The translations under genes and the position numbers were made by a program. A stretch of DNA of 64,000 nucleotides from Microbulbifer taiwanensis (GTDB lineage: Bacteria; Pseudomonadota; Gammaproteobacteria; Pseudomonadales; Cellvibrionaceae), in the NCBI RefSeq assembly GCF_014904815.1, contig NZ_JACZFR010000026.1, forward strand, positions 62,001-126,000, read 5' to 3'. The notes below the pieces were generated by a model that was not told the DNA's origin, made no database searches, and was given only the letters and a program-made list of their open reading frames with translations. Below are positions 14,090 through 40,272 of this stretch, one piece after another. Position 1 is the first letter of the stretch. Each line of letters opens with the position of its first letter.

Positions 14090-14211
14090 GCGAAGGCGCT
14101 GATATTGGTAGCCTTTTGCGGGACTGCCTGTGAGAGGGACCTCGCAGACAAGCCTCCAGGGATGGATTCACGGCGCGTCCCGCAAAAGGCTACCAGTAGC
14201 AGGGCCGCCAC
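14090..14211 (-). repeat. Palindromic intergenic element, copy A
   Basis: A 122-bp unit with about 30-nt inverted arms: read on the minus strand, GGTAGCCTTTTGCGGGAC is answered by GTCCCGCAAAAGGCTACC. The core of about 60 nt contains CGCCGTGAATCCATCCCTG and a small inner hairpin around GAGGTCCCTCTC. The outermost part of the stem has three mismatches. The same layout recurs at 31923-32043 and 40152-40272 with different but self-complementary arms. It fills the space between the deaminase stop and the ubiG ribosome site. Confidence 0.85.
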
Positions 14212-14233
14212 GAAGTTAATAAAGGACCGCAAA

Positions 14234-14947
14234 GTGGCCGAACCAACGAACAATGTAGATCCGGCGGAAATCGCCAAATTCGAACAGCTCGCCAGCCGCT
14301 GGTGGGATCGCGAGGGCGAGTTCAAGCCGCTGCATGAAATCAACCCGCTGCGCGCCAACTATATCGACCAGCGTGCACCGGTGGCGGGCAGGAAACTGCT
14401 GGACGTCGGCTGCGGCGGCGGCATATTGACCGAGGCCATGGCCCAGCGCGGCGCCGAGGTGACCGGCATCGATATGGGTGAGGCGCCGCTAAATGTGGCC
14501 AAGCTGCACGCGCTGGAAAGCGGCGTCAATGTGGACTATCGCCGCATGCCCGTAGAGAAACTGGCCCGGGAACAGCCGGCCAGTTTCGATATCGTCACCT
14601 GCCTGGAAATGCTCGAGCATGTACCCGACCCCGCATCCGCAATCCGCGCTTGCGCTGCATTGGTGAAGCCGGGGGGACAGTTGTTTTTCTCCACCATCAA
14701 CCGCACCGCCAAGGGCTGGCTGTTCGCGGTGGTGGGCGCCGAGTATGTGTTGCGCCTGCTGCCCAAAGGCACCCACGAATACGGCAAGTTTATCCGCCCG
14801 TCCGAGATGGGCGCCTGGCTGCGCGAAGCCGACCTGGAACTCCGCGACATCACCGGCATGACCTACAACCCGTTGACCCGCAGTTACAAGCTGAATCCGC
14901 GGGATGTCGACGTAAACTACCTGATGCATGCCTGTAAACCGGAATAA
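14234..14947 (+). CDS. ubiG: Ubiquinone biosynthesis O-methyltransferase
   Basis: Performs the two O-methylations of ubiquinone synthesis using SAM. The 237-aa product starts at GTG 14234, with AAAGGA 7 nt upstream. It begins [25 protein letters not shown], a UbiG N-terminus, and has the SAM motif [19 protein letters not shown], then [11 protein letters not shown] and the C-terminal YLMHACKPE. An upstream reading from 14033 would cross repeat copy A and is rejected. The gph gene follows within 15 nt, forming the ubiG-gph pair seen in many gammaproteobacteria. Confidence 0.96.
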
Positions 14948-14962
14948 GTGACCGGAAACAAA

Positions 14963-15622
14963 ATGAAAGCTGTTTTATTTGATCTGGATGGCACCCTATT
15001 CGATACGGCGCCGGACTTTATCGTCGTCCTCAACCAGCTGCGCCAACAGGAACAACTGCCGCCGCTGCCGGATGACGCAATCCGCTCGGTAGTCTCCAAC
15101 GGCGCGCGCGCCCTGGTGAGACTGGGCTTTGGCAAGGACGAAGGCGACTCCGGGTTCGACGGGCTGCGCCAGCGGCTGCTGGACCTGTATCTCGCACACC
15201 TGGCCGAAAAAACCGTGCCCTTCCCCGGTATCGAGGCGCTGCTGGACAATCTCGCAGAAAACCAGATCGCCTGGGGCATAGTCACCAACAAGCCGGAAGC
15301 CTATACGGTACCGCTGATGCAGGCCTTCGACCAACTGCCCACTCCCGGTGCGGTCATCTGCCCCGATCACGTGAGCAAACGCAAGCCGGACCCGGAGCCG
15401 GTCCTGCTCGCCTGCAGCCAGATCGGCTGCGATCCGCGGGAAGCGGTCTACGTGGGCGACCACGAGCGGGACATCGCCGCCGGCCGCGCCGCCGGCATGC
15501 CCACCATTGCCTGCAGCTACGGCTATATTGACGAGGGCGACAGCGCCGCCAACTGGGGCGCGGATCACCTGGTGGACTCGGCGGAAGAGATCTGGCCGCT
15601 GCTGCAGCGGCACTATCTCTAG
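14963..15622 (+). CDS. gph: Phosphoglycolate phosphatase-type HAD hydrolase
   Basis: HAD-superfamily phosphatase, probably removing 2-phosphoglycolate formed in DNA repair. The 219-aa protein opens MKAVLFDLDGTLFDTAPDF (motif I, nucleophile Asp), with TNKPEAY (motif II Thr), KRKPDPEP (motif III Lys) and YVGDHERDIAAGRAAG (motif IV acidic pair). ATG 14963 is preferred to the GTG at 14948, which abuts the ubiG stop. Position after ubiG supports the Gph assignment over other HAD phosphatases. Confidence 0.9.
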   Translation: MKAVLFDLDGTLFDTAPDFIVVLNQLRQQEQLPPLPDDAIRSVVSNGARALVRLGFGKDEGDSGFDGLRQRLLDLYLAHLAEKTVPFPGIEALLDNLAENQIAWGIVTNKPEAYTVPLMQAFDQLPTPGAVICPDHVSKRKPDPEPVLLACSQIGCDPREAVYVGDHERDIAAGRAAGMPTIACSYGYIDEGDSAANWGADHLVDSAEEIWPLLQRHYL

Positions 15623-15644
15623 AAGGTGAGTTGCGGGAAGACCT

Positions 15645-15670
15645 TGTAGGAGCGGCCGGTGGCCGCGATC
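15645..15670. repeat. REP-like hairpin
   Basis: TGTAGGAGCGGCCGGTGGCCGCGATC contains GCGGCC/GGCCGC arms and opens with GTAGGAGC, the hallmark of REP sequences described in Pseudomonas. It lies between gph and yciK. A related but longer element is at 61131-61206. Confidence 0.6.
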
Positions 15671-15703
15671 GGTGGTTCAGCCACCACAGAATCTGGAATT
15701 GTT

Positions 15704-16462
15704 ATGTCTGAATTTATCGGCGACTACCAAGCGCCCCAAGACCTGCTCAAGGACAAAATCATCCTGGTCACCGGCGCCGGCGACGGTATCGGCAAGACCG
15801 CGGCCAAGACCTTTGCCGCCCACGGCGCCACGGTAATCCTGCTCGGCCGCACCACGCCCAAGCTGGAAATGGTCTACGACGAAATCGAAGCGGCCGGCGG
15901 GCCACAGCCGGCGATATTCCCGATGGACCTGAACACGGCGACAATCGAAACTTTCGAACACTTCGCCGAAGCCGTGGACCAGGAATTCGGTCGCCTCGAC
16001 GGTCTGCTGCACAACGCCAGCCTGCTGGGCCAGCGCACCCCCATCGCCAACTACCATTTCGGCACCTGGCAGCAGGTGATGCAGGTAAATGTCAACGCCG
16101 CTTTTGGCCTCACCAAAGTGCTGCTGCCGCTGCTGGATAAATCCGAGGCCGGCTCGATTGTCTTTACCGGCTCCGGCGTCGGCCTCAAGGGCCGCGCCTA
16201 CTGGGGCGCCTATTCGGTGTCGAAGTTTGCCACTGAAGGACTGATGCAGGTACTGGCCGACGAGCTGGACGGCGTCTCCAACACCCGCGCCAACAGCGTC
16301 AACCCCGGCGCTACCCGCACCAACATGCGCGCCACCGCCTATCCGGCTGAGGACCCAAAATCGGTAGTAGCGGCGGAAGAAATAATGCCCACCTACCTGT
16401 ACCTGATGGGAGCCGACAGCCGCGGGGTGAGCGGCAGGCAGTTCAATGCCCAGAAGAGGTAG
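15704..16462 (+). CDS. yciK: YciK-family short-chain dehydrogenase
   Basis: NAD(P)-dependent oxidoreductase of the SDR fold; physiological substrate unknown. The 252-aa protein has the cofactor motif VTGAGDGIGKTAAKTFAAHG, the NxxS region LHNASLLG, and the catalytic Ser...Tyr-x-x-x-Lys as FTGSGVG and YSVSKFA. The N-terminal ENDYQ-like lead (IGDYQAPQDLLKDKIILVTG) is typical of YciK. ATG 15704 is chosen because the upstream part of the open frame spans the REP-like repeat. A bidirectional terminator follows. Confidence 0.88.
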   Translation: MSEFIGDYQAPQDLLKDKIILVTGAGDGIGKTAAKTFAAHGATVILLGRTTPKLEMVYDEIEAAGGPQPAIFPMDLNTATIETFEHFAEAVDQEFGRLDGLLHNASLLGQRTPIANYHFGTWQQVMQVNVNAAFGLTKVLLPLLDKSEAGSIVFTGSGVGLKGRAYWGAYSVSKFATEGLMQVLADELDGVSNTRANSVNPGATRTNMRATAYPAEDPKSVVAAEEIMPTYLYLMGADSRGVSGRQFNAQKR

Positions 16463-16497
16463 TGGTCGGTGATCGGCGATTAGAGATCGGATAAAAA

Positions 16498-16527
16498 ATA
16501 CCCGGGCAGGCCCCGGGTATTTTTTTG
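16498..16527. terminator. Bidirectional rho-independent terminator
   Basis: AATACCCGGG and CCCGGGTATT form a 10-bp stem with a CAGGC loop. It is followed by a T-run on the plus strand and preceded by an A-run, so it also works on the minus strand. It lies between the converging yciK and the acidic membrane protein gene and can end both transcripts. Confidence 0.92.
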
Positions 16528-16547
16528 CGGATTCGATTGACTTAGGG

Positions 16548-16895
16548 TCATTCCTCCGTGTGGTCGATATCCTCCTCCGGCATTTCGTCCATTGCCTCTT
16601 CAGTCATTTCCTCCGCTTCCTCTGCGGCGGCTTCCATTGACTCCGCCGCCTCTTCGGCGCTACCCATCATATGCTCCGGGGCATCGGCAAAGACATCGCC
16701 CTCGACTTCCATCAATTCATTACTGGCTACCACCGTCTCGTCCGCAGCCTTCTCCATCGCCTCACCAGCCTGCTCCACCGCAGATTCGACTTCTTTGGCG
16801 ATAGCCGCTTCGGAAGTGGCGGGCTCCATGTTCTGGTAATAGAAGTAGCCGCCGATGGCGGCAATCACAATAGCGGGAATAATGATTTTCTTCAT
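16548..16895 (-). CDS. Membrane-anchored acidic Ala/Glu-rich protein
   Basis: Unrecognised small protein of 115 residues. It has a short basic start and one membrane segment (KKIIIPAIVIAAIGGYFYY, residues 2-20), then an extremely acidic Ala/Glu/Met-rich body (repeats like EEAAESMEAAAEEAEEM). It probably forms a helical or disordered periplasmic or cytosolic tail. ATG 16895 with GGGGTCGGAAA upstream is a better start than the longer reading from 17024. It ends at the shared terminator with yciK. Function unknown; low complexity makes homology calls unreliable. Confidence 0.75.
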   Translation of the reverse strand: MKKIIIPAIVIAAIGGYFYYQNMEPATSEAAIAKEVESAVEQAGEAMEKAADETVVASNELMEVEGDVFADAPEHMMGSAEEAAESMEAAAEEAEEMTEEAMDEMPEEDIDHTEE

Positions 16896-17050
16896 TTTCC
16901 GACCCCTGGATAGTGTGGATTTATGATTATTTGCGCAGTCCATTGTTCCACGGTGGTTCTGGCAAAAATGTGACCTGCAACACGTTTCTGTTTGTCGATT
17001 TTCCGGTACTCGGGCAGAATCCACCTATCCCAACTAGCGAAGCTGTCAAT

Positions 17051-17476
17051 ATGCGAACTCTCTACACCATACCATTGCTGGCACTGCTCGCCGCCGGCGC
17101 CACCGCAGAGGACTCCCTCACCAAGCAACTGCGCGGCTGCTCTACCATTAAAGACAACAGCGAGCGCCTGGCCTGTTACGATGCCCTGAGCAAGACCCTC
17201 GACAAGCGCGCGGAACAGATCTTCGGCCAGGAGCAACAGCGTATTGCCGAAGAGGCCCCCGAGTCCATCGACGCCACTATTGCCGAGGTTCAGAAGATCG
17301 CCTACGGCAAGCTGCTGATTACACTGGACAATGGACAGGTGTGGCGCCAGAACGACAGCGGGCGGGTTCACTGGAAAGGCGGCGATACTGTCACATTGGA
17401 GCGCGGCCTGTTTGGCTCCTTCTTTATGAAGGCGGAGGACGGAGGACGGAAAATACGCGTAAAGCGCGTCCAGTAG
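17051..17476 (+). CDS. Secreted hypothetical protein with LACYDAL motif
   Basis: A 141-aa protein with a signal peptide (MRTLYTIPLLALLAAGATA, cut before EDS). It has a short motif with two cysteines, CSTIKDNSERLACYDALSK (about residues 32-50), found in many small proteobacterial periplasmic proteins, and a C-terminal beta-rich part (LLITLDNGQVWRQND, GDTVTLERG, MKAEDGGRKIRVKR). The later part resembles small OB-like periplasmic domains; no function is assigned. ATG 17051 is chosen because the signal peptide begins there. The YceI-like gene follows 100 nt downstream on the same strand. Confidence 0.75.
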   Translation: MRTLYTIPLLALLAAGATAEDSLTKQLRGCSTIKDNSERLACYDALSKTLDKRAEQIFGQEQQRIAEEAPESIDATIAEVQKIAYGKLLITLDNGQVWRQNDSGRVHWKGGDTVTLERGLFGSFFMKAEDGGRKIRVKRVQ

Positions 17477-17576
17477 ATTGGCGACCTCCCCGATCCATTC
17501 CGCGAATTGGCCGCCTTTGCTGCGGCCAATTCCGCCCCCCCTAAAATCCCCGCAGCGAAGCGGCCGGAGGCCACCC

Positions 17577-18224
17577 ATGTTCCACCGAAGCGCCCGCCTT
17601 TTCAGCCTGCTGCTACTCCTCGCCGGCCCGGTTTCCGCCGAAAGTGTAGACTTCGCCATCGACTCGCCAGCTTCCGATATCCACTGGCGCATTTACAGCG
17701 ACGGCCCCCTGCCACTCGGGCACAACCACATCATCTCGACCAGCCGTATCAGCGGCAGCGTGCGACTGGCAGATGCGCCCGAGGCCTCGCACTTTGAATT
17801 GCTGATTCCCGTCGCGGCCCTGTTAGTGGACAGTCCCGCGCTGCGACAGCGCTACGGAAAGCAATTTTCCTCGCGCGTGTCCCCCAGGGCCAGGGCCGGC
17901 ACCCGCGCCAATATGCTCGGCAACTCGCTGCTGAACGCTGCACACCATCCCGATATCCGCCTGGGCGGCTCTGCCGTGGTCGCCCGTGACAAGCGCCGGC
18001 AGAACCTGGTCCTGGATACGACCCTTGAACTGGCCGGACGCAGCATCCGGTTGAAGATTCCCGCCCAGATCGAATTCGGCGATCGCGAAGTGCGCGCCCG
18101 CGGCCATTTCACCCTGAGCCACAGCCAGTTGGGACTGGCGCCATTCCGGGCCGCGCTGGGCGCACTGCGGGTGGCCGACAATATAGACTTCACCTACGAC
18201 ATCCAGGCTAGGCGCACCGAGTGA
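17577..18224 (+). CDS. YceI-like periplasmic protein
   Basis: Predicted lipocalin-like periplasmic protein; YceI relatives bind isoprenoid-type lipids. The 215-aa product has a signal peptide (MFHRSARLFSLLLLLAGPVSA), a core with GHNHIISTSRISGSVRLAD, FELLIPVAALLVDSPALR, MLGNSLLNAAHHPDIRL and a C-terminal strand series ending NIDFTYDIQARR. The His in GHNH and the NSLLNAAxxPxI segment match the YceI pattern. Its 3' end overlaps the convergent methyltransferase-fold gene by 17 bp. Confidence 0.8.
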   Translation: MFHRSARLFSLLLLLAGPVSAESVDFAIDSPASDIHWRIYSDGPLPLGHNHIISTSRISGSVRLADAPEASHFELLIPVAALLVDSPALRQRYGKQFSSRVSPRARAGTRANMLGNSLLNAAHHPDIRLGGSAVVARDKRRQNLVLDTTLELAGRSIRLKIPAQIEFGDREVRARGHFTLSHSQLGLAPFRAALGALRVADNIDFTYDIQARRTE

Positions 18225-19416
18225 CCGCTGGCAACTCCCCTAGCTGAAACAGGAGCTCCCCCAGTTGCTGTGCTGCGGCAGAGGGAGATGCGACAATGCG
18301 CTGCCCACAGAAACCCGGCAGCTGCGGCGGGGCCCCGCACTCCAGCGGCACTGAACCCGGCGACAATTCAACTTTTACCACGCCACCGCCGGTCAGCTGC
18401 AGGCAGCGGGGGCAAAACGCGATGCCGCCGTCCAGCGCCAGCAGTTGCGTAGACTCGCGGCACAGCGGCGCGAGCCAGTGGGCAAACACCTGCTGGGCCA
18501 CGGGAGACAGGTGATTCAGCAGGTCCCAGGCAATGACGACGTCGAATTTCCTCTCCCCGACACAGCTTCCCAGCAGCCGGCGAATCGCTGCCTCCGGTGA
18601 CTCACTCCCGGAGCGCGCGCCCTGCTCCACCGCTGTGTAAAGATCGACCACTTCCAGCTCGGCCCCCTCCCGCAACCAGAGCGCCCGGTGCCCCTCTCCT
18701 CCCAGGTCCAACAGCTTCACACCGATGCTGTCCCTCAGGCGGGCCAGCAGCCGCCCGAACATCGGCGAATGGTATTGCATGGAAGTCTCGCCGCCATCAC
18801 CCCGCGCTTCGGCGACAACCGTGCTCGCCCGCGAATCGGGTTCGTAGCGGAAAACCTGCTCGGACACGCCCGGCTGCATGCCCGGCCGCTCGCAATAGGT
18901 GTGCAGAATACTGTAGTGCTCCAGGGCCTTGAGCAGCTCCGCGGCGCTGTGTCGGGGGAGTCTGCGCGGGCCCAGCGGCGCTTCTTCCAGGTCCAGCTGT
19001 CCCTCGTCACAGATAGAGAAACGGCGCGGTGCCTCGGGAATGCGCGCGGACAGATAATTCACACTGTGCACCAGCGTGCCCGGCTTACAGAATTGTTGCA
19101 GCCGGCGCAACAGTGCGGCGACGGCATCCAGGGGCAGGTAGTTGAACAGATCCCAGGTCAGGACGATATCGAATCGCTCACCCGTCCTGTGGCCCAGCAC
19201 GAAACGCTCCAGTGCATAGATAAGGTTGCCGGTGGAGAGACGCCCCTTCTCGGCCACAAACTGGTCGAGATTCTCGAAGTGAATTTTGCAGCAGCTGCCG
19301 GAAAAGTGCTGGAAGGTGCGGCTGCTCATGGAGCCCAGATCCAGAACCCTGTTTTGACGCCCCGGTGCCAGGGCGCGGCAAACGGACTGGATTCCCGGTG
19401 AACAGTGAATGGCCAT
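18208..19416 (-). CDS. Tandem methyltransferase-fold protein
   Basis: A 402-aa cytosolic protein built of two similar halves. Residues about 1-200 contain NRVLDLGSMSSRTF...FDIVLTWDLFNYLPL, and residues about 220-400 contain VKLLDLGGEGHRALWL...FDVVIAWDLLNHLSPV. Both halves look like a Rossmann SAM-methyltransferase core (motif I DLG, motif IV-like V-x-x-W-D-L-x-N-x-L), arranged as an internal duplication. The Gly-rich loop of the first half lacks the GxGxG pattern, so it may be non-catalytic. It is 70 nt upstream of the bactofilin gene on the same strand; substrate unknown. Confidence 0.7.
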   Translation of the reverse strand: MAIHCSPGIQSVCRALAPGRQNRVLDLGSMSSRTFQHFSGSCCKIHFENLDQFVAEKGRLSTGNLIYALERFVLGHRTGERFDIVLTWDLFNYLPLDAVAALLRRLQQFCKPGTLVHSVNYLSARIPEAPRRFSICDEGQLDLEEAPLGPRRLPRHSAAELLKALEHYSILHTYCERPGMQPGVSEQVFRYEPDSRASTVVAEARGDGGETSMQYHSPMFGRLLARLRDSIGVKLLDLGGEGHRALWLREGAELEVVDLYTAVEQGARSGSESPEAAIRRLLGSCVGERKFDVVIAWDLLNHLSPVAQQVFAHWLAPLCRESTQLLALDGGIAFCPRCLQLTGGGVVKVELSPGSVPLECGAPPQLPGFCGQRIVASPSAAAQQLGELLFQLGELPAVTRCA

Positions 19417-19486
19417 AGTGCGGTTGTTATTGTTATTCGGGCTGTATGCGCCCCCGGAGAGTCGCCTACAGCCACGATATGGTCAC

Positions 19487-20035
19487 TTACTCTTCGAGCA
19501 CCGTTTCGGGCTGTTTTTCCGTACCTGCACCCCTGGTCCCGGGTTTAACCGACCAGCTGGCACCAGTTTTCTCGCCGACTTTCTGCAACTGGTCGCGGTG
19601 CGCCTCCACATCCATATCGATGGAACCGCGGAATCTGGCACCGTCCTCCAGAATTACCCGCTCGGCGACCAGGTTTCCCTGCACATTGCTGGAAGAGAGA
19701 ATGGCGATCCTCTCCTGGGCGAAGATATCGCCCTCCACCTCCCCCTGCACGGTGATGGTCTTGGCCAGTACATTGGCCTTCACCTTTCCCTGTTCGCCGA
19801 CGGTCAGGTTGTTGTCCTTGAGGTCGATGGTGCCGTCAATCTGCCCCTGGATCAGGAGATCCTCTTCCCCCACCAGCTCCCCGCGGAAACGGATCTTGGG
19901 CCCGATGATCGCGGCCGGAGCCGATACCTCCTGCGCCGCGAGCACATCGAAATGACCGGCAGCCGAGCCATTGCCCGCCAGGGAGGGCTTGGGATTGACT
20001 TCGGATTTGATGGTGTCACTTTTGCTGCCAAGCAT
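19487..20035 (-). CDS. Bactofilin (polymer-forming cytoskeletal protein)
   Basis: Bactofilins polymerise into filaments that position cell-wall and polysaccharide machinery. The 182-aa protein has a disordered N-terminus, a central right-handed beta-helix domain (about residues 45-140: FRGELVGEEDLLIQGQIDGTI, NLTVGEQGKVKANV, ITVQGEVEGDI, AILSSSNVQGNLVAERVILEDGARFRGSI) and a charged C-terminal tail. The repeating hydrophobic-Gly strands are diagnostic. Start ATG 20035 with GAGGAG 9 nt upstream. It is divergent from the sigma factor gene. Confidence 0.93.
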   Translation of the reverse strand: MLGSKSDTIKSEVNPKPSLAGNGSAAGHFDVLAAQEVSAPAAIIGPKIRFRGELVGEEDLLIQGQIDGTIDLKDNNLTVGEQGKVKANVLAKTITVQGEVEGDIFAQERIAILSSSNVQGNLVAERVILEDGARFRGSIDMDVEAHRDQLQKVGEKTGASWSVKPGTRGAGTEKQPETVLEE

Positions 20036-26043: not shown

Positions 26044-27318
26044 ATGATCCGTTGTGGAATTTTCTGCGCCCTGGCCGGCGTGGTATTGATCAACCCGGCT
26101 ATTGCCGACCAGGCGGAAACCAAAGGCGGACTGAAAATCACTTCGGATGACGGCAACTTCTCTTCCCAACTCGGCGGCCGCATCCACTTTGACACCTATC
26201 TTTTCGACCCCGACATCGAAGACCCGGTAAGCACCACCGAAATCCGTCGCGCGCGCCTGGCAGTGAGTGGCCAGCTGTGGAAATGGGAGTACAAACTGGA
26301 TCGCGACTTCGCCTCCAGCGGCACCGGCGGTATGCGCGACGTCTATATCGCCACCAAAGTGCTCGGTGGAAAGCTGACCATCGGCAATTTCAAACCCTAT
26401 CGCTCCATGGAAGAGATGACCAGCTCCAATGAAATAACCATGATGGAGCGCTCATTTACCAGCGCCGGAGGTATCTATGCCGACCGCCAGCGGCAACAGG
26501 GCATCGGCTGGCACACCTTCTGGGACTGCTATACCCTCGGTGTCGCCGGCTATAACCTGCGCGACCCCGGCGGCCCGCGCAACGAGGGGCTGGGAGCCTC
26601 CAGCCGCTTTACCTGGGCCCCTCTCAATGACAGCCTAAGCACTGTCCACCTGGGGATTTCGGGGAGCCATGACAATGCCAACCGGGATTCGGACCCCCTA
26701 GTGGCTGACGTCACCTACGCCGGACGCCGCGGTCCGGACCAGCTGATTGCATTGACTCCGGGCGACAGGTCTTTCTTTGTTGAAGACTTCGACAACGACG
26801 ATTTTTTCTTCGGCGATCAGGGCGGCAGCGTCAACACCGTGGGCCTGGAGCTGGCGGGAACCCACGGCCCTCTCTACGCACAGGCGGAATATGTGTACGG
26901 GGATTTCGAGGGAGACTACTTCTTGTCGGAAATTGCCTTCGAAGACTTCTTTGGCGCCCCGCCAAGCTTCGAGTGCGACCCGGATTTTGGCTGCTATATC
27001 GGCGGCCAGGACGTGCGTACCTGGTACGTCATGGGAAGCTGGGTGATCACCGGTGAACACAAACCCTACGACAGCAAAAAAGGCGTATTCAGATCCGTCA
27101 AACCGCGCAGCGGCTGGGGCGCCTGGGAGCTGACCGCGCGCTACCAGACCATCGAAAACAAGGACATTGACGACCTGGAAGCGAGCAACGTCACGCTGGG
27201 GGTCAACTTCTACTTCAACCCGCGCGTGCGATTTATGCTCAATGTGGTATTGGGGGACGATGACTTTACCGGCGACGAAACCGACCAGCTGGCGTTTCGC
27301 GCCCAGGCGAGCTGGTGA
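26044..27318 (+). CDS. OprO/OprP-type outer-membrane porin
   Basis: Phosphate-selective porin O/P family beta-barrel. The 424-aa protein has a signal peptide (MIRCGIFCALAGVVLINPAIA) and KGGLKITSDDGNFSSQLGGRIHFDTYLFD, a typical first strand. It then shows RRARLAVSGQLWKWEYKLDRDF, a C-terminal VNFYFNPRVRFMLNVVLGDDDF and a final aromatic residue. A strong AGGGAGG ribosome site precedes ATG 26044. The stop codon overlaps the start of a heptamer repeat tract. It converges with the oxidoreductase gene. Confidence 0.9.
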   Translation: MIRCGIFCALAGVVLINPAIADQAETKGGLKITSDDGNFSSQLGGRIHFDTYLFDPDIEDPVSTTEIRRARLAVSGQLWKWEYKLDRDFASSGTGGMRDVYIATKVLGGKLTIGNFKPYRSMEEMTSSNEITMMERSFTSAGGIYADRQRQQGIGWHTFWDCYTLGVAGYNLRDPGGPRNEGLGASSRFTWAPLNDSLSTVHLGISGSHDNANRDSDPLVADVTYAGRRGPDQLIALTPGDRSFFVEDFDNDDFFFGDQGGSVNTVGLELAGTHGPLYAQAEYVYGDFEGDYFLSEIAFEDFFGAPPSFECDPDFGCYIGGQDVRTWYVMGSWVITGEHKPYDSKKGVFRSVKPRSGWGAWELTARYQTIENKDIDDLEASNVTLGVNFYFNPRVRFMLNVVLGDDDFTGDETDQLAFRAQASW

Positions 27319-27387
27319 TGCGGAATGCGGAATGCGGAATGCGGAATGCGGAATGCGGAATGCGGAATGCGGAATGCGGAATGCGGA
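27318..27387 (+). repeat. Heptamer tandem tract (ATGCGGA)x10
   Basis: Ten exact copies of ATGCGGA begin on the last base of the porin stop codon. The unit is 7 bp, so expansion would not keep a reading frame, but it lies after the stop. The inverted unit recurs at 27480-27514, so the two can pair. Confidence 0.95.
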
Positions 27388-27479
27388 ATAGAATGTTCGG
27401 CCGAGGCTTAATCGTCAAACCCACTATTCCGCTAGCTTAGGCGCGGCCCCCGCTCCAGCGGAATACGCGATGCTCATTC

Positions 27480-31360: not shown

Positions 31361-31831
31361 ATGAAGCGTTCGACAGACCTGGATGATTTTGACCGTAAGA
31401 TACTGCGAGCGCTGCAGGAGAACGCCGATTATTCCATGGCGGAACTCGGAGACAAAGTGGGCCTGTCCCACACACCCTGCTGGCGCCGAATCAAACGCCT
31501 GGAGGCCGAGGGCATAATCCGCGGACGCGTCACCCTGCTCGACCCCCGTAAACTCGACCTAGGGGTCACAGTATACTGCTATGTCACCATTCACAACCAC
31601 GACGAAGAATCCCTGAACAGTTTCGAGTCCGCCGTACAGGACGTGCAAGAAGTCGTGGAGTGTTATTCCACCAGTGGCGACAAGGACTATGTACTGCGTG
31701 TGGTGGTGGACAGTGTCGAGCACTACGAGCAGTTGCTGAAGCGTTCGCTGGTGCACCTGCCCAATGTGGCATCGGTCAATTCCACCTTTGCGTTGAAGCA
31801 GGTCAAGTACACGACTCAGCTGCCGCTTTAA
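31361..31831 (+). CDS. Lrp/AsnC family transcriptional regulator
   Basis: Feast/famine regulator that binds DNA as dimers or octamers and senses amino acids. The 156-aa protein has an N-terminal winged helix (LDDFDRKILRALQENADYSMAEL through LSHTPCWRRIKRLEAEGIIRG, residues about 6-60) and a RAM ligand domain (about 70-150; VTIHNHDEESLNSFESAV, ECYSTSGDKDYVLRVVV). AGGAG precedes ATG 31361. Divergent placement from the fused indolepyruvate oxidoreductase suggests control of that gene by aromatic or branched-chain amino acids. Confidence 0.93.
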   Translation: MKRSTDLDDFDRKILRALQENADYSMAELGDKVGLSHTPCWRRIKRLEAEGIIRGRVTLLDPRKLDLGVTVYCYVTIHNHDEESLNSFESAVQDVQEVVECYSTSGDKDYVLRVVVDSVEHYEQLLKRSLVHLPNVASVNSTFALKQVKYTTQLPL

Positions 31832-31922: not shown

Positions 31923-32043
31923 TGGCGGCCCTGATGCCGGTGGCTATTTGCGGGACACGCCGTGAATACATCCCTGTAGGCTTGTCGGCGAGGTCCCTCT
32001 CGCCAACAGTCCCTCAAATAGCCACCGGCATCAGGGCCTTCGC
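31923..32043 (+). repeat. Palindromic intergenic element, copy B
   Basis: The best-formed copy: about 30-nt arms, from GGCCCTGATGCCGGTGGC onward, pair with the distal arm with only one mismatch. The core carries CGTGAATACATCCCTGTAGG and an inner hairpin GGCGAG-GTCC-CTCTCGCC. It lies between the converging Lrp and shikimate-kinase-like genes. Compare 14090-14211 and 40152-40272. Confidence 0.92.
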
Positions 32044-32091: not shown

Positions 32092-32604
32092 TTAATTCAG
32101 CGCCTTTAATCCTACCAGTACCCGATCCAGCACCTGCTGCAGATCCCTGCCGTCGCAGTCCACGGTGATATCCGCATATTTCCGGTACAGCGCCTGCCGC
32201 TCGGCAAACAGCTCCTCGAACGACTGCCCCGGCGCCTTGGCGATACCGCGGCTCTCGTAGTTGTGAATGCGACGGCGCAACTCATCTGCGGAACAGTTCA
32301 GGAAAACCACAGGACCGAAACGCTGCAGGTTTGCCATACCCTCTTCGCTGTACACGACACTGCCGCCGGTGGCGATCACATGATTGGGCAGGTCGGCATC
32401 GGCGATCACCTCGCCCTCGATACGGCGCAGGTTCAGGTAATCGCTCTCGTCCATGATTTCCTGCAGCGTTTTGCTCTCGCGCAGCTGGATCAGCACGTCG
32501 GTGTCGACGAAATCCAGAGCCAGCTCCTTGGCCAGCAACACCCCCAGGGTACTCTTGCCGGCGCCCGGCATGCCTATCAGGACAATACTTTTGTTTTTTT
32601 TCAT
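32092..32604 (-). CDS. Shikimate-kinase-family protein
   Basis: P-loop kinase of the AroK/AroL family (170 aa): Walker A GMPGAGKST (residues 11-19), DTDVLIQ with the conserved Asp, LRRIEGEVI with the shikimate-binding Arg, and ERQALYRKYAD with the lid-side Arg. The normally invariant ATGGG is ATGGS here, and the lid RPLL region reads RGIAKAPG. It is far from aroB and sits 63 nt after an acyltransferase gene. It may be a paralogue with another small-molecule substrate in the neighbouring glycan cluster, or a second shikimate kinase. Confidence 0.78.
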   Translation of the reverse strand: MKKNKSIVLIGMPGAGKSTLGVLLAKELALDFVDTDVLIQLRESKTLQEIMDESDYLNLRRIEGEVIADADLPNHVIATGGSVVYSEEGMANLQRFGPVVFLNCSADELRRRIHNYESRGIAKAPGQSFEELFAERQALYRKYADITVDCDGRDLQQVLDRVLVGLKALN

Positions 32605-32667
32605 TTCGCTATTTTATTACCGATACCGCCGGGAGTCAGTTACCAGTGAAACCTTTAGCGGCACCGG

Positions 32668-34116: not shown

Positions 34117-35160
34117 CAGCAGTCGCACGGATGTAAAGAGCCCGCTCGCCGGCGTCAGCCCGGCGAGCGCGTCCGCCGCCAGCAGCATGGCGCCCACCGT
34201 CCAGGTGGGTTTCTCCTCCGGCCAGATCGCCTTGTCGCGGTAAACGTAACCGGTCCAGTAGCCGCCGTCCCCATCCTGCCAGCGGTGCAGTGCGCGATAG
34301 AGTTTCGCCGCGCGACTGCGCTCTCCGGCCGCCACCAGTGCCATGGTCAGCTCGCAGGATTCCGCCACTGTCACCCAGGGTTCATCACTGACACAGCGAC
34401 AGCCGAGCCCGGCCACGACAAATTCATCCCATTTTTTCTGCAGTCGCGCGCGCGCCGCGCTGCCGGAGAAGACACCAGTCAGCACCGGATAAAACCAGTC
34501 CATCGAAAAGCGCGCCTTGCTCTCCCAGGTGCGATCGAAGCGCTCGGGCTTCTCCCGCAGTGCCCGACCCAGCTGCGCCCTGCCCTCAATCCAGCGCGGG
34601 CGGGATTGGCCCAGGGAATGGGCAATATTGATGGCGCACTCCAGGCTCTTGTATATCGAAGAACAGCCGGTAATCAGCGCATCCTCTTTGGGCCGGCCGT
34701 CACCGTCGACCGCCCAGTGAATCTCACCGTGCCCCGTCTGCAGCGCCAGCACGAACTCCACTGCGCGCTCGACCATGGGCCAGTAGCGGCGCAGGAAGTT
34801 TTTATCTTCTTCGATCAGGTAGTGATGCCAGATACCGGTGGCGATATAGGCCACGAAATTGCTCTCGCGGCGCTCGCGGTTGTGCACTTCGCCGTCTTTG
34901 TATGCCGCCCACCAGCTGCCGTCGGCGAGCTGGATATCGGCCAGCCATCCGTACGCCTTTTCTGCCGCGGCGTATTCACCGGCAATACTGAGCCCCATCG
35001 CCGCCTCAACGTGATCCCAGGGATCCGCATAGCCGCCGTCGAACCAGGGAATGGCACCGTCTGCCTGCTGCCGCGAGAGAATATAGCCCGCACTGGCGCG
35101 CAAAAAACCGCTGGGAAATAGCGCATTGCCGGACAGTGCGGGAAGTGCCAGATCGCTCAA
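34045..35160 (-). CDS. Six-hairpin (alpha/alpha barrel) protein, often annotated prenyltransferase-like
   Basis: A 371-aa cytosolic protein with repeated helical hairpins bearing aromatic-rich loops: GAIPWFDGGYADPWDHVEAAMGL, DGSWWAAYKDGEVH, GEIHWAVDGDG, WQDGDGGYWTGYVYRDKAIW. This pattern resembles (alpha/alpha)6 glycosidases and terpene-cyclase-like folds; database names for such proteins ('prenyltransferase') are not proof of function. The start overlaps the previous gene's stop by 4 bp, so translation is coupled. Probably acts on the glycan made by the neighbouring enzymes (inferred). Confidence 0.65.
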   Translation of the reverse strand: MSDLALPALSGNALFPSGFLRASAGYILSRQQADGAIPWFDGGYADPWDHVEAAMGLSIAGEYAAAEKAYGWLADIQLADGSWWAAYKDGEVHNRERRESNFVAYIATGIWHHYLIEEDKNFLRRYWPMVERAVEFVLALQTGHGEIHWAVDGDGRPKEDALITGCSSIYKSLECAINIAHSLGQSRPRWIEGRAQLGRALREKPERFDRTWESKARFSMDWFYPVLTGVFSGSAARARLQKKWDEFVVAGLGCRCVSDEPWVTVAESCELTMALVAAGERSRAAKLYRALHRWQDGDGGYWTGYVYRDKAIWPEEKPTWTVGAMLLAADALAGLTPASGLFTSVRLLSDPAQNTEGVDCLHQLELSGSQG

Positions 35161-35930
35161 GACTGCACCTCCATTGCCACTGCCGCTGTCTCCTGCCCAT
35201 ACTTCCGGGGCTCATCCGGGGGCGACTGCGGTTTGACAAAGTAGAGCACTATGCTTTTGCCCAGAATCGGGTTCAGTAGTTTTTCCAGTGCGCGGGTCAG
35301 CAGTGGTTTTTGCATCAGGTCCCAGACCAACAGGCGATGATAGGCCGCGAGGAGACGCGACTCCGGCTTGCTCCAAAGCAGGCACTTAAGCCACCAGAAG
35401 GGTGCGTGCAGGGCGTGCGCCTTGTGGCGAGCAAAGTACTGATGTCCCAGGCTTTCGATACTGTTGCGCAGTTCGCGCTCGCGGAATATCCGGATATGGC
35501 CACCCTCCACCTGATGGTACTCGTCGCTGAATTGCCAGCAGACCCACTCCGGGAAAAAGGTCGGTACACTCGCGGCGAAGATACCCGCGGGCTTCAGTAC
35601 CCGATCTATCTCCGCAAGGACACCGCGGTAGTCCAGGATATGCTCGAGGACTTCGGAGCAGATCACCACATCGAAGCTATTATCGGCGAAAGGCAACTGC
35701 AAGCCGTTGCCGACCCCGAGTAGCAACCGCCCCGGCGTTTGCGGCTCACCCACAAATGGCTTGGCGCGCTCACTGGCCGTGCGCACATCGTCGATACTCA
35801 GATCGATACCTACCACATCCACCGCCTCGGACACCAGCAAGTGGATTGCGTGGCGCCCCTCGCCGCAACCCAGATCCAGCACTCGCTGCCCAGCCTGCAG
35901 ATTCAGATTGCGCAGTTCGACAGTAATCAT
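35157..35930 (-). CDS. Class I SAM methyltransferase (Methyltransf_11 type)
   Basis: Small-molecule or glycan methyltransferase, 257 aa. It has motif I VLDLGCGEGRHAIHLL (about residues 18-33), VVGIDLSIDDV, the post-I LPFADNSFDVVICSEVLEHI, and IDRVLKPAGIFAASVPTFFPE. The C-terminal half is unusually rich in Trp and Arg (FARHKAHALHAPFWWLKCLLW), perhaps for membrane or lipid-carrier contact. Start ATG overlaps the glycosyltransferase stop by one base (TGATG). Middle gene of a coupled three-gene operon. Confidence 0.9.
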   Translation of the reverse strand: MITVELRNLNLQAGQRVLDLGCGEGRHAIHLLVSEAVDVVGIDLSIDDVRTASERAKPFVGEPQTPGRLLLGVGNGLQLPFADNSFDVVICSEVLEHILDYRGVLAEIDRVLKPAGIFAASVPTFFPEWVCWQFSDEYHQVEGGHIRIFRERELRNSIESLGHQYFARHKAHALHAPFWWLKCLLWSKPESRLLAAYHRLLVWDLMQKPLLTRALEKLLNPILGKSIVLYFVKPQSPPDEPRKYGQETAAVAMEVQS

Positions 35931-37303
35931 CAGGCTGCCTCCGCGCCACTTGAGGCCTCGGTGCGTGTCGCAACGCGCGGCAGCGACCTGACCCGCGGTT
36001 CGCCGAGAATCCGGCGGTAATAATCCACCAGGTGTGCCGCCGCCAGGCGCCAGGAAAACTGCTGCTCGATACGCTCCCGGCCCTTGCGCCCCAAATCCTG
36101 ACGCAGGGACTCATCGGATAGCAACTTATGCAGCGCCTGCGCCAGCGCTACACAGTCTCCCGCCGGCACAACCAGACCAGCATCGCCCACCACTTCCGGC
36201 AAGGCGCCGCCATCGCTGGATACCACCGGTACACCGCAGGCCATGGCTTCACCGGCCGGCAGGCCGAACCCCTCATACAGGGACGGACAGGCCACTACGC
36301 TTGCGCTCGCGTAGTACTCCACCAGCTCCTGGTTGGAGATACCGGATACAAAACGCACCGCATCCTGCAACTGCAACTCGTGCAGTAATTGCTCTGTGGC
36401 GCCGCCTTCCTGAAGGCGCCCGACTACCAGCAACTCGAGTCCAGGATGGCGCTGGCGCAGCTCCGCCAGCGCCTGTAGCAAAAAGCGCAGCCCCTTGAGC
36501 GGCTGGTCGGCAGATGCGGTGGTCATGATACGCAGCGGCTTGCGCACTACCTGCGGCTGCGGCTTGAACAGATCCGTGTCTATACCGTTGTAGATCAGCT
36601 GGATCTGCTGCGGATCCACACCGAACTGTTCGACAATATCCCGCTCTGACTGGCGCGAGACAGTGACAATATTGCGCAGTCTGCGCGAAACCCTGATCTG
36701 CATCCCCAGGAAGCTGTGCCAACGGCGCACTAGCAGCCGGTAACGCCAGTCCGGCGCCGCGTCCAGGGCCAGTTGCCGGTCGCGGGTAATCGGATGGTGA
36801 ATGGTGGCCACAACCGGCAATCCACTTTTTTCGATATCGAGCAGGCCATAACAGAGGGACTGGTTGTCGTGCACTATGTCGTAGTGGCAGCCATGCTCGC
36901 GCAGGTACCTGGCCGCGCGGCGGCCGAAAGTGTAGGGCTCGGCGAAACCGCCGGTCAGCTTGCCCCACCACTCGAAGAAATCGGTCCAGGACAGCAGGTG
37001 ACGCCATTTCAGCGCGCGCGTGGGACGCTCTTCCTCAAACAGGTTCAGCCCCGGCATCTCAATCAGCTTTACGCGCGGGTCCAGTACCGGATAGGGCTGC
37101 CCGGAGATAACATCCACCGTGTGACCCGCCTCTACCAGCGCCTTGCTCAGATAGTGGAGATAGACCCCCTGCCCCCCACAGTAAGGATGGCTGCGATAGC
37201 CCAGCAGGCAAATTCTCAGTGGTCGCGACTTCAGTGGCTGCGGCGGCGCGACCGATGGGCCGCCCGTACAATTCCTCTCTCTACCCTTGCCCGAGGCGGT
37301 CAT
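35930..37303 (-). CDS. GT4-family glycosyltransferase heading the glycan operon
   Basis: Retaining GT-B enzyme, 457 aa. The N-terminal acceptor domain has ICLLGYRSHPYCGGQGVYLHYLSKALVEAGH (about 31-61) and VVATIHHPITRDR; the C-terminal donor domain has NIVTVSRQSERDI, VIYNGIDTDLF-like QLIYNGIDTDLFKP, PLKGLRFLLQAL and CPSLYEGFGLPAGEAMACGVPVVSSDGGALPEV, with both conserved Glu. First gene of the run GT4 - methyltransferase - six-hairpin protein. Likely modifies a surface polysaccharide or a lipid-linked sugar. Confidence 0.92.
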   Translation of the reverse strand: MTASGKGRERNCTGGPSVAPPQPLKSRPLRICLLGYRSHPYCGGQGVYLHYLSKALVEAGHTVDVISGQPYPVLDPRVKLIEMPGLNLFEEERPTRALKWRHLLSWTDFFEWWGKLTGGFAEPYTFGRRAARYLREHGCHYDIVHDNQSLCYGLLDIEKSGLPVVATIHHPITRDRQLALDAAPDWRYRLLVRRWHSFLGMQIRVSRRLRNIVTVSRQSERDIVEQFGVDPQQIQLIYNGIDTDLFKPQPQVVRKPLRIMTTASADQPLKGLRFLLQALAELRQRHPGLELLVVGRLQEGGATEQLLHELQLQDAVRFVSGISNQELVEYYASASVVACPSLYEGFGLPAGEAMACGVPVVSSDGGALPEVVGDAGLVVPAGDCVALAQALHKLLSDESLRQDLGRKGRERIEQQFSWRLAAAHLVDYYRRILGEPRVRSLPRVATRTEASSGAEAA

Positions 37304-37444
37304 GACTTCCCCATCTGTGTTGTTCTATTACCGGAGGCTGGAAACTGCGAAGAATACACTGGCGCAGAAATGACTGCCAGACAGAATCAGTTCACGTTGA
37401 TTGCTCCATCCGTAGCCCTCGCCCTTAGGGCAGCCTTCAGCCGT

Positions 37445-37470
37445 ACTAAGCGGCAATCCTGCCGCTTAGT
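37445..37470. other. 11-bp stem with ATCC tetraloop
   Basis: ACTAAGCGGCA and TGCCGCTTAGT pair perfectly around ATCC. It lies upstream of the GT4 operon on the minus strand and 79 nt beyond the ompW stop. It could be a leader hairpin of the operon or a second ompW terminator; no U-run is present. Confidence 0.6.
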
Positions 37471-37493
37471 GACATATTTTCAACACGCACAGA

Positions 37494-37526
37494 AAAGCAG
37501 GTGAGCGGCCCGGGCCCCTCACCTGC
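37494..37526 (-). terminator. Rho-independent terminator of ompW
   Basis: On the minus strand GCAGGTGAG and CTCACCTGC form a 9-bp stem around a GC-rich loop and run into TTTTC, 23 nt after the ompW stop. Confidence 0.8.
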
Positions 37527-37548
37527 CTCGCGAGATGCAGCGGGTGGA

Positions 37549-38400
37549 TTAAAAGCTGAAGCGATAGCCCACGCCCAGATTGAACATCCAGGGACTCATG
37601 TCCAGCTCATCGCGTACACGCACTGGCAGGATGATGGAATCACTGAATCCGGGCACCAGTGTCTCGGTGTCGTAACCGATGTAGATGTCCGGTTCGGCAT
37701 CCACATACATCGCGGAGGCGTTGATCTGCCAACCGTTGTCACGGCCGAAATTGAAATCCACACCGACCTGCGCCGTCCAGGTGAAATCGCTGCCGAAATC
37801 CAGCAAACCGAATTCACCAAATTGATCGCGGAAAACCGGTCGCAAAAACTCCTGCTCGATATCGACGTAGCTGACACCCAGACCGACGTAGGGCTGAATC
37901 AGGCAGGTGGGGCTCATCGGATACCAGTTTGCGAAAAGACTGGTGGTATAGGTATCGAAATCGCCGACCCCCTGGGAGAAGCTACCAAAGGAACTGCCTC
38001 CGGTACTGGCAATTGAAGTGAGTGTTGCATCGAGATTGGCGTCGGCACTTAAGTAGAGCTCTATCCCCAGGTGCTCAATCGGTAACCAAACGCCACTGAT
38101 ATACCAGGTAGTATCATCATCCAGGTCCACGTCGGTAAACACGTTGACATTTACAAAATCACTCGCCACCGGGTTTTCGATCGCGGGATCAGCCACGCTG
38201 AATACCTGGGTTCCAGAAAAGACGTTATCGTCCGGCTCTACATACGAGGCGCCGACACGCAACATGACGGTTCCAGCGGTATATATTCCCGGTGATGGCT
38301 GCTGTACTGGATAACCAGATGGGCCCGCCAGGGCCGGCTGGGCGGCGAAGCCGGCGTATCCCGCCAGTGCCATGGGGATTAGGAGGGACTTCAATCTCAT
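37549..38400 (-). CDS. ompW: OmpW-family outer-membrane protein
   Basis: Eight-stranded beta-barrel that lets small hydrophobic molecules through the outer membrane in known OmpW proteins. The 283-aa product has a signal peptide (RLKSLLIPMALAGYAGFAAQPALA) and YTAGTVMLRVGASYVEPDDN at the first strand. It then has TWYISGVWLPIEHLGIELYLSAD, FANWYPMSPTCLIQPYVGLGVSYVD and a C-terminal GVGYRFSF ending in Phe. These are typical OmpW strand motifs. It is somewhat longer than E. coli OmpW (212 aa). A terminator follows. Confidence 0.9.
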   Translation of the reverse strand: MRLKSLLIPMALAGYAGFAAQPALAGPSGYPVQQPSPGIYTAGTVMLRVGASYVEPDDNVFSGTQVFSVADPAIENPVASDFVNVNVFTDVDLDDDTTWYISGVWLPIEHLGIELYLSADANLDATLTSIASTGGSSFGSFSQGVGDFDTYTTSLFANWYPMSPTCLIQPYVGLGVSYVDIEQEFLRPVFRDQFGEFGLLDFGSDFTWTAQVGVDFNFGRDNGWQINASAMYVDAEPDIYIGYDTETLVPGFSDSIILPVRVRDELDMSPWMFNLGVGYRFSF

Positions 38401-38544
38401 GGGGTAACTCCTTGTAACGCTGAAAAGCTCCTTCGCCGCAGTTGCGGTTACTTCCAGTATAGGTGGGCTTTTTCAACATGCAGCAAGGCGTACCAATTAG
38501 AGAGCGGATCTGGGGAAATATATTCCGACAGTGTGTTGCCGGAC

Positions 38545-38572
38545 AAAAAAAATGCCCGCCAAATGGCGGGCC
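38545..38572 (-). terminator. Terminator of the PuuA-like gene
   Basis: On the minus strand GGCCCGCC-ATTT-GGCGGGC runs into TTTTTTTTG. It lies about 150 nt beyond the ligase stop, in the 318-bp gap before ompW, which otherwise holds only a short palindrome AAGCGCG-TTA-CGCGCTT (38608-38624) and the ompW promoter region. Confidence 0.85.
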
Positions 38573-38718
38573 AGATTTCTCGAACACACTTTCAGGAGGA
38601 GAGTCTCAAGCGCGTTACGCGCTTAACCTAGGTATAGCAAATGTTTATCCCCGCCTGCGATTCCTGTCGCCAAAGCCGTCGAGTAGTTGTGGCAAGTGCC
38701 GCCCCTCTGTGGATAGGG

Positions 38719-40104
38719 TCACACCCGGTGCAGGTAGCTCTGGTACTCCACATCGGTCACGCGCGCACCTATCTCCGCCAGTTCCTGGCGCTTCAGTAGC
38801 AGGAAGAGTTCGACAAAGCGCGGATCCAGGTATTTCTGCCACAGGGGACTCTTCTCGAAGCGCTTCAATGCGTCGCTCCAGGTGTTGATCAACTGCTCGC
38901 TCTCCACCTGGTAGGCATCGCCTTCAACCGGCGCCGGGGGCTCCAGCTTGTTCTCGATACCGTGGCAGACTCCGGCGAGGATCGCTGCCAGCACCAGGTA
39001 GGGATTCACATCGGCGCCGGCGATGCGGTGCTCGATGCGCCGCGCTTCCGGATTGCTGGCCGGCACTCGCAGGGTGGTGGTGCGGTTGTCATAGCCCCAG
39101 CAGAGGTTGAGCGGCGCGTGGGAACTCTCCTGGAAACGACGGTAAGAATTGCTGTGCGGCGCGAAGAAGGCCATCGCGTCATTGGCGGTGGCCAGCATGC
39201 CGGCGGCTGCCTGGCGCAGCAGCTCGGAGCCTTGCTCGCTGCCGTCGTCGAAGACATTTTTGCCGCTGTCGTCGATCAGGCTCATATGCACGTGCATGCC
39301 ATTGCCGGCCTGGTCGCCGAAGGGTTTGGCCATGGTGCTGACGCGGAAGCCGTGACTGCGCGCCACCCCCTTCAGCAGGCGCTTGAACAGCAGTGTCTGG
39401 TCGGCGACCTTCACCGGGTCGGCGCTGTGCAGCAGGTTGATCTCGAATTGCCCCGGCGCGCACTCGGACAGGACGGAATCCGCCGGGATGCCCTGCTCTT
39501 CACAGGCGGCGCGCACATCGGCGAAGAAATGCCGCTGGGCGTCCAGCTCCGAGAGGTCGTAGACATCGGTGGACGGCACCAGCTCGGCATCGTTGTCGCT
39601 GACCGGACGCGGCCGCGCCAGGTGGTCCGCCTCTTCGCGCAGCAGGTAGAACTCGAGTTCGGTGGCGCACACCGCGGTGTAACCGAGCTCCTTTAGTTTT
39701 GCGACCACGCCCTGCAACTGGGTGCGGGGATCGGCGTAGAGCGGCGAGCTGTCCGCCTCGTGCAGCTGCATATGCAGCTGTGCCGTCTGTTCCCGGTGCC
39801 AGGGCGCCAGGCAGATGGGTGAAACCGGGATGCAGATGCCATCGCTGTCGCCGCTGGCGAATACCAGCGGACTGTTTTCAATATCCCGCCCCCAGATATC
39901 CAGGCTGGCGGCACTGCGCGGCATCTGCAGGCTGCCCTTCAGCAGCTTTTCCGCCGAATCCGCCGGCAGCCACTTGCCGCGGGGAACACCGTTGATATCG
40001 AACATAAAGCCCTCGATCCATTTCAGATCGGGGTTTTCAGCGAGGACCTGGCGCGATTTTTCCAGCAGTTCCGGTAGCGGTATAAATTCTTTTTCCTGAG
40101 ACAT
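38719..40104 (-). CDS. puuA: Gamma-glutamylputrescine synthetase (PuuA/SpuI-like glutamine synthetase)
   Basis: ATP-dependent ligase joining glutamate to putrescine at the start of the Puu pathway. The 461-aa protein has the GS beta-grasp (FMFDINGVPRGKWLP) and the catalytic domain: ATELEFYLL, GQFEINLLH, KPFGDQAGNGMHVHMSL, APHSNSYRRFQ, WGYDNRTTTLRVP and EHRIAGADVNPYLVLAAILAG. These signatures and the adjacent class III aminotransferase point to the polyamine type rather than nitrogen-assimilating GlnA. AAAGG stands 6 nt before ATG 40104. Confidence 0.88.
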   Translation of the reverse strand: MSQEKEFIPLPELLEKSRQVLAENPDLKWIEGFMFDINGVPRGKWLPADSAEKLLKGSLQMPRSAASLDIWGRDIENSPLVFASGDSDGICIPVSPICLAPWHREQTAQLHMQLHEADSSPLYADPRTQLQGVVAKLKELGYTAVCATELEFYLLREEADHLARPRPVSDNDAELVPSTDVYDLSELDAQRHFFADVRAACEEQGIPADSVLSECAPGQFEINLLHSADPVKVADQTLLFKRLLKGVARSHGFRVSTMAKPFGDQAGNGMHVHMSLIDDSGKNVFDDGSEQGSELLRQAAAGMLATANDAMAFFAPHSNSYRRFQESSHAPLNLCWGYDNRTTTLRVPASNPEARRIEHRIAGADVNPYLVLAAILAGVCHGIENKLEPPAPVEGDAYQVESEQLINTWSDALKRFEKSPLWQKYLDPRFVELFLLLKRQELAEIGARVTDVEYQSYLHRV

Positions 40105-40151
40105 AGTTTGCCTTTACCGGGATCCCGGATTCGGGGCCCCTTGATGTGTCC

Positions 40152-40272
40152 GTGGCGGTCCTGATACCGCTGGCTGTTTGCGGGACGCGCTGTGAATACA
40201 TCCCTGTACGCTCTAATCGGCATCCCTGCCTCATAAGGCCCCGCAAACAGCCAGCGGTATCAGGACCTTCGC
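40152..40272 (+). repeat. Palindromic intergenic element, copy C
   Basis: A 121-bp unit with perfect 27-nt arms: CCTGATACCGCTGGCTGTTT is matched by AAACAGCCAGCGGTATCAGG, plus GCGGG/CCCGC. The core shares CGTGAATACATCCCTGTA-like sequence with copies A and B, but the inner hairpin is degenerate. It lies between the PuuA-like start and the aminotransferase stop and would be part of a read-through transcript. Confidence 0.92.

Follow-up and report, generated by a model that had tools for sequence, protein, structure and literature searches.

What keeps the two arms of a dispersed palindrome complementary while their sequence changes, and is it DNA or RNA that has to fold? This question is raised by a stretch of 64,000 nucleotides of Microbulbifer taiwanensis (assembly GCF_014904815.1, contig NZ_JACZFR010000026.1, positions 62,001 to 126,000; the whole stretch is called the window), in which a preliminary description placed three copies of a palindromic element of about 121 bp. 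The copies lie where that description had put them: copy A at 14090-14211 (written there as minus), copy B at 31923-32043 (plus), and copy C at 40152-40272 (plus). We propose, with a confidence slightly better than even, that the element is a dispersed structured-RNA module that would bind CsrA/RsmA through two sites. This is the most economical reading, since the imperfect pairs are strand-asymmetric, the loops vary where Csr/Rsm sites vary, the spacing is fixed, and the stem sequence is free.

Element Structure and Stem Covariation

The element is 112-125 nt long. Read on the reverse of the strand given in the preliminary description, it consists, in order, of arm, CGGGACCGT, hairpin 2, GAGC, hairpin 1, TTCACGGCGTGTCCCG, and arm'. 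The arms reach 30 bp and are nearly unrelated between arm types, yet they are complementary. In some loci of the phylum survey (see below), the GGGAC/GTCCC foot is altered and both hairpins are kept. The core pattern was matched three times in the window against 0.13 expected. Folded as RNA, the strand of the preliminary description gave z = -7.0 (A), -10.7 (B), and -10.5 (C), and none of 200 shuffles of any copy was equally stable. RNA of the opposite strand also folds far beyond shuffles (z = -7.75, -9.46, and -9.98, respectively).

Pattern searching gave 196 matches; both arms lay within the locus for 186 of them, and 173 reached a score of 15 or more. A score cut of 17 was used for an alignment of 68 copies (A2), and model R2 consists of 68 copies, roughly one per arm type. 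In the 68-copy alignment, 93.1% of 3128 cells were paired compared with 60.7% after shuffling, a percentage slightly inflated by the prefilter on arm complementarity (173 of 186 copies passed the first cut). Covariation, judged by two kinds of control, was 0.787, compared with 0.176 after shuffling and no more than 0.148 after sliding, and double changes were found in 38 of 46 pairs. Furthermore, an alignment of 39 copies from the M. taiwanensis genome showed at least one double change in 23 of 30 predicted pairs. The preliminary description had reported four differences between the arms of B and C, each matched on the other arm, and had taken them as selection for a hairpin. All four are compensated, in a quoted stretch of 20 letters rather than 22, and the selection is supported by covariation far above both controls and by many further copies. 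The arms appear to be selected for pairing, not for sequence.

Some copies carry additional sequences. Several copies with different arms (L018, L019, L024, L026, L042, L039, and the second copy of L013) have a 15-nt block, GGCTAGGCGCCCCCC, in hairpin 1, always at the same point; it is present or absent between orthologs (L360 and L365 versus L302 and L304). In L039 and L126, hairpin 2 contains another, nested repeat (GGCCGAAGGCGCC...) that destroys its loop. In addition, a second palindrome, GGGCGAACACAAGGTTCGCCCCTA, stands on one or both sides of the M. taiwanensis copies L002, L006, L016, L025, L034, L039, and L040; it was not found in the window.

The Strand That Folds

Counted on the strand of the preliminary description, the arms of the 173 copies (64 arm types) showed 109 A.C and 24 G.T events (P = 4e-14), and 95 additional events were other mismatches. 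When one copy per arm type was used, there were 68 A.C and 11 G.T. In double-stranded DNA, either strand should show G.T and A.C in equal numbers. The excess of A.C therefore indicates that the fold of the reverse strand, where these cells become G.U, is the one that matters.

Related genomes were also compared. At one conserved Stenotrophomonas locus, the right-hand copy of seven species had 169 Watson-Crick, 6 G.U, and 0 A.C cells, with two positions fully exchanged (the left-hand copies of L407 and L411 and versions L414-L418 and L423 stand outside the count of this locus). At site C, the three arm changes between G017 and G016 are all G.U on the RNA strand. The preliminary description had left the choice between a DNA and an RNA hairpin. 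The RNA option fits better, with the reverse of the strand given there as the RNA, because both the strand-specific non-Watson-Crick states and the Csr/Rsm loop consensus belong to that strand. In general, the asymmetry of G.U versus A.C provides a simple in silico test for the selected strand of a dispersed palindrome.

Loops, Spacing, and csrA Genes

The survey matches were 38 in number (41 R2 matches in 25 survey loci minus three opposite-strand rows). Among them, C-A(N)GGAX-G was found in 38 of 38 hairpins 1 and in 37 of 38 hairpins 2, and the remaining hairpin 2 is without N. With both hairpins pooled, all four letters (A, C, G, and T) are found at N and likewise at X. Among the 173 copies, hairpin 2 reads ANGGAX in 155 and AGGAX in 10, and 8 are without GGA; its closing pair is C-G in 61 of 68 copies and G-C in 7. 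Because hairpin 1 was built into the collecting pattern, the loops are tested more independently by hairpin 2 and by the survey matches. A palindrome search without any loop requirement in the same loci found 156 elements, 135 with two exact loops and 21 with one. In addition, the GGA-to-GGA spacing is 22-24 nt in 68 of 68 copies; the preferred spacing for bridging by one CsrA dimer is about 18 nt.

At the level of sequence, these loops match the published recognition loop of the Csr/Rsm system, including its known tolerance. According to work on RsmE, the recognized unit is A(N)GGAX over a stem closed by C-G, the high-affinity form is a hexaloop directly on the stem, and N is missing from two natural RsmZ loops (PMC4005645). 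An A(N)GGAX hairpin loop with a C-G closing pair is thus what the element carries, apart from the exceptions counted above (8 of 173 hairpins 2 without GGA). Meanwhile, the M. taiwanensis genome has one csrA match, and PF02599 was matched in 36 of 41 genomes of the genus (partially in G008). What can be read directly from the DNA comprises the fold and its covariation, the asymmetry between strands, the consensus and spacing of the loops, and this csrA gene.

CsrA-family matches number 5-19 each in the genus genomes G003, G004, G006, G009, G010, G014, G030, and G058. Seven of these were searched with copy B: six gave no match, and G014 gave two. G006 had nine R2 matches.

From this we infer transcription, CsrA binding, titration, and effects in cis, which would fit together as follows. 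If the strand opposite to that of the preliminary description is transcribed, a long stem whose sequence is arbitrary would present two small hairpins, 22-24 nt apart, each with an A(N)GGAX loop and in most cases a C-G closing pair. The two hairpins would then most likely capture one CsrA/RsmA dimer, and dozens of copies together would buffer free CsrA. In cis, a copy may protect or regulate the transcript that carries it. Between sites, the element would spread at the DNA level by some route or other.

Abundance and Distribution

The covariance model R1 gave 110 rows at E ≤ 0.01, corresponding to 63 distinct places in the M. taiwanensis genome, three of them within the window; the further copies expected of a dispersed family thus exist. 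The 39 genomic copies from which R1 was built match by construction, and both R1 and R2 favor elements that resemble their building copies. A BlastN search of the same genome with copy B gave 67 matches, arm echoes counted in. Copy B was also matched at E = 1e-6 in 31 of 58 sampled genomes, M. taiwanensis among them, and the outer arms of its element are present in other Microbulbifer records as well.

A pattern scan of named contigs found at least 120 stretches. The 80 stretches listed include Microbulbifer, Marinobacter, Alcanivorax, Stenotrophomonas, Xanthomonas, Luteimonas, Thermomonas, Haliea, Halioglobus, Rheinheimera, and Sedimenticola. A single Nitratireductor bin with a Marinobacter-like core may be mis-binned. 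In the survey of the phylum with R2, which used stricter filters and scored 9 candidates per genome, 34 of 397 genomes and 22 of 231 genera were matched, and all 34 genomes belong to one and the same class.

No match to copy B was found among plasmids and phages. At the gathering score, Rfam had no match in the window, and the sole match in 13 element-bearing loci was 5_ureB_sRNA in L163, away from the element. The sub-threshold Rfam matches at copy B were mostly microRNA models with long stems.

Copies in the Window and Their Neighbors

The copies, their loops, and the adjacent genes are the following.

12673-14058, plus: amidohydrolase-family gene, upstream of copy A in RNA sense (PF01979, 5.6e-75)
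14090-14211, plus: copy A, proposed RNA strand; R1 match G000:C89:76087-76211 (offset 62001); RNA fold -71.9 kcal/mol, z = -7.75
14135-14140, plus: loop AGGGAC (A-N-GGA-X) of copy A hairpin 2; 6-nt loop in the predicted fold
14158-14163, plus: loop AGGGAT (A-N-GGA-X) of copy A hairpin 1; hairpin in the predicted fold
14234-14947, plus: methyltransferase-domain gene, downstream of copy A (PF13489, 3e-24); the GTG start at 14234 is our choice
31361-31831, plus: Lrp/AsnC-type regulator gene, convergent with copy B (PF01037, 4.3e-21)
31923-32043, minus: copy B, proposed RNA strand; R1 match; RNA fold -84.2 kcal/mol, z = -9.46
31970-31975, minus: loop AGGGAT of copy B hairpin 1, within TAC-AGGGAT-GTA; hairpin in the predicted fold
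31993-31998, minus: loop AGGGAC of copy B hairpin 2; 6-nt loop in the predicted fold
32092-32604, minus: shikimate-kinase-domain gene, upstream of copy B in RNA sense (PF01202, 6.5e-32)
38719-40104, minus: glutamine-synthetase-domain gene, downstream of copy C in RNA sense (PF00120, 3.6e-104)
40152-40272, minus: copy C, proposed RNA strand; R1 match; RNA fold -75.3 kcal/mol, z = -9.98; hairpin 1 open in the minimum-energy fold
40200-40205, minus: loop AGGGAT of copy C hairpin 1; unformed in the minimum-energy fold
40222-40227, minus: loop AGGGAT of copy C hairpin 2; hairpin in the predicted fold
40316-41668, minus: class-III aminotransferase gene, upstream of copy C in RNA sense (PF00202, 2.9e-85)

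All three copies sit in RNA sense relative to their upstream gene. Elsewhere in the window, ATGCGGA units form a tandem array at 27304-27394.

Turnover and Tests for a Mobile Element

Copies are often found in inverted pairs, and alternating arrays also occur. When 40 loci each of G034 and G023 were compared, nine orthologous pairs were obtained. Three of them are near-identical, two have the same arms with a different core, and in four the element and some flank were replaced by another family member. At site A, some congeners carry the element complete, deleted, or in another version, and nothing recognizable was found in others. From the nine pairs and the versions of site A, some addresses are long-lived and their contents are exchanged, via conversion among copies or re-insertion. 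Furthermore, a history of spread at the DNA level is still needed, because the copies are dispersed, inverted pairs are frequent, and orthologous sites show the exchange of entire elements. No clean empty site was seen among the orthologs compared, and the Stenotrophomonas lines without the right-hand copy have ragged deletions (L419, L421, and L422).

Three unusual arrangements were noted. The inverted array at L200:2480-3380 is made up of alternating members of two Xanthomonas subfamilies, which differ in their arms. In Xanthomonas L176 and L217, one element is apparently fused to the inverted half of another. L094, L096, and L067 (G034 and G023) share the same outer arms and have a different core, GCTCAACAGCCTCATCGGCAAA....

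A mobile unit like a miniature inverted-repeat transposable element (MITE) or a REPIN, built from repetitive extragenic palindromes (REPs), had been offered as the DNA option. A partner transposase of the RAYT type did not emerge: at 33 Y1_Tnp loci (4 in M. taiwanensis and 29 in the genus, part of the places listed), there was one moderate match (L275, E = 1.8e-6), one weak match (L056), and one short match to the core pattern (L055). Likewise, 12 of 41 flanks contained direct repeats of 5 or more where 11.8 would be expected, so target-site duplication found no support. Of 41 M. taiwanensis copies, 8 have the tag GTAG in the 16 nt upstream, compared with 2 of 41 at a control position, and a GTAG-type palindrome stands beside the Y1_Tnp gene in L055 (one of four loci scanned for inverted repeats). 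A REPIN/RAYT identity is not supported, because no strong copy occurs at the 33 Y1_Tnp loci and the tag is rare.

Alternative Explanations

Several observations weigh against a CsrA/RsmA module, and gene context is the weakest side of an RNA reading. In our counts of context, in which genes were called by our codon-bias script and some loci were counted twice, 65 copies between codirectional genes were sense and 56 antisense (P = 0.47). Sense copies are no better kept (mean non-Watson-Crick 1.63 in sense and 1.34 in antisense), and terminators among the 173 copies number 2 in each sense. In addition, 5 of the 41 genus genomes gave no CsrA match, and three of these five (G018, G027, and G028) have 17 element rows each; in G028, lysC was found and bases beside it are not available, so that absence of csrA cannot be inferred there. 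Some stem changes also do not fit. The left-hand Stenotrophomonas copy of four species has 4 G.G cells besides 94 Watson-Crick and 2 G.U, the three near-identical pairs of G034 and G023 are mixed on the RNA strand (two G.U, one A.C, and one C.C), and L365 additionally has one A.C-type and one other unmatched arm change. Finally, the Watson-Crick exchange with few intermediates in the M. taiwanensis genome is also compatible with copying from arm to arm.

The main rival, which we regard as unlikely but serious, is a palindromic mobile element acting at the DNA level. It would fold as single-stranded DNA, a transposase or recombinase would read the two loops, and the likeness to Csr/Rsm sites would be accidental; the stems would re-pair because only well-folded copies move. 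The 63 dispersed places, the inverted pairs and alternating arrays, and the whole-element replacement at 4 of 9 ortholog pairs agree with such an element, as do the lack of sense bias beside genes and a weak leading-strand bias in G034 (41 of 67, P = 0.09, with origin and terminus inferred from the skew of the same loci). G.T is the best tolerated mismatch in single-stranded DNA, so the strand asymmetry is compatible with it as well. However, neither a partner transposase at the 33 Y1_Tnp loci nor target duplication above expectation was found, a compensated change arose in place at the Stenotrophomonas locus, and a pattern in which N and X vary but A, GGA, and C-G stay constant is specifically that of Csr/Rsm sites. 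It is less probable still that the element is an RNA hairpin of mRNA ends which acts by its long stem, through exonuclease block, processing, or termination, with loops bound by another RNA-binding protein or a ribosomal factor. A stem alone needs neither an invariant double loop nor a fixed 23-nt spacing, and in RNA sense a terminator-like hairpin adjoins just 2 of 173 collected copies and the element at 3 of 18 survey loci, which belong to a single family (none in the other sense at survey loci). Such a hairpin would nevertheless explain the RNA-strand asymmetry, the 39 convergent versus 12 divergent gaps (P = 2e-4, same context counts), and the simple hairpins at the intergenic sites B and C in other genomes.

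Arm-to-arm copying, by template switching or mismatch repair of a cruciform, could keep the arms matched without selection on RNA, and the variable arms would then be neutral. This process predicts no preference between G.U and A.C, yet the counts are 109 to 24, and it leaves the conserved loops unexplained. The wobble asymmetry thus speaks against it as the sole cause, which we consider very improbable, even though the mid-stem in M. taiwanensis is almost purely Watson-Crick with several pair types, one-base insertions are paired in both arms of L019, L031, and L042, and indels are symmetric at one locus (L408 versus L412).

Comparison with Known Systems and Implications

The CsrA/RsmA module resembles the antagonist RNAs of the Csr/Rsm system (RsmX/Y/Z and CsrB/C), which also have several A(N)GGAX loops on short C-G-closed stems, as set out for RsmZ (PMC4005645). 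These RNAs are described as single genes, whereas the present element has two sites on a long variable stem and is repeated in the genome. The module would act like an Rsm antagonist RNA without matching any such Rfam family. RsmU of Xanthomonas is an RsmA-binding small RNA from a 3' untranslated region; it is likened here by description, and the sections considered do not present it as a repeat (PMC7694677). Among the titles and abstract openings listed by our literature searches, we found nothing that joins CsrA/RsmA with a dispersed repeat.

Among DNA repeats, the GTAG- and CGTC-tagged REPs, bacterial interspersed mosaic elements (BIMEs), and REPINs are also dispersed intergenic palindromes with inverted pairs and more convergent than divergent gaps, according to the overview in PMC3733652. 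REPs and REPINs are 20-40 bp long, whereas the element is 112-125 nt long, with conserved loops, variable stems, and no strong copy at Y1_Tnp loci. REP/REPIN membership was rejected on this length, on the mostly absent tag, and on Y1_Tnp genes that the element does not flank. The terminal inverted repeat (TIR) families of the TIRYT transposases in Stenotrophomonas are likewise moderately abundant, partly self-complementary, and found as dimers; the motif GGGGWSAS given there as common to them differs from the conserved core here (PMC3733652). Bacterial MITEs such as RUP, NEMIS, and ERIC, which are named in the same source (PMC3733652), resemble the element in size class, dispersal, and a transcribable hairpin. 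Unlike MITEs, the element has no target duplication above chance.

It is possible, although somewhat doubtful, that many Gammaproteobacteria have a genome-wide network of this kind, in which tens of exchangeable RNA modules would serve as two-site CsrA/RsmA docks on stems of free sequence. If the proposal is true, repeats that are easily taken for passive palindromes would be a large set of CsrA/RsmA sites, two per place at 63 places in M. taiwanensis. Copy number would then set the level of free CsrA, and the repeats would mark individual transcripts for CsrA. The number of repeat copies would thus be linked to a global regulator, a link open to direct testing, and repetitive DNA would join a global post-transcriptional circuit.

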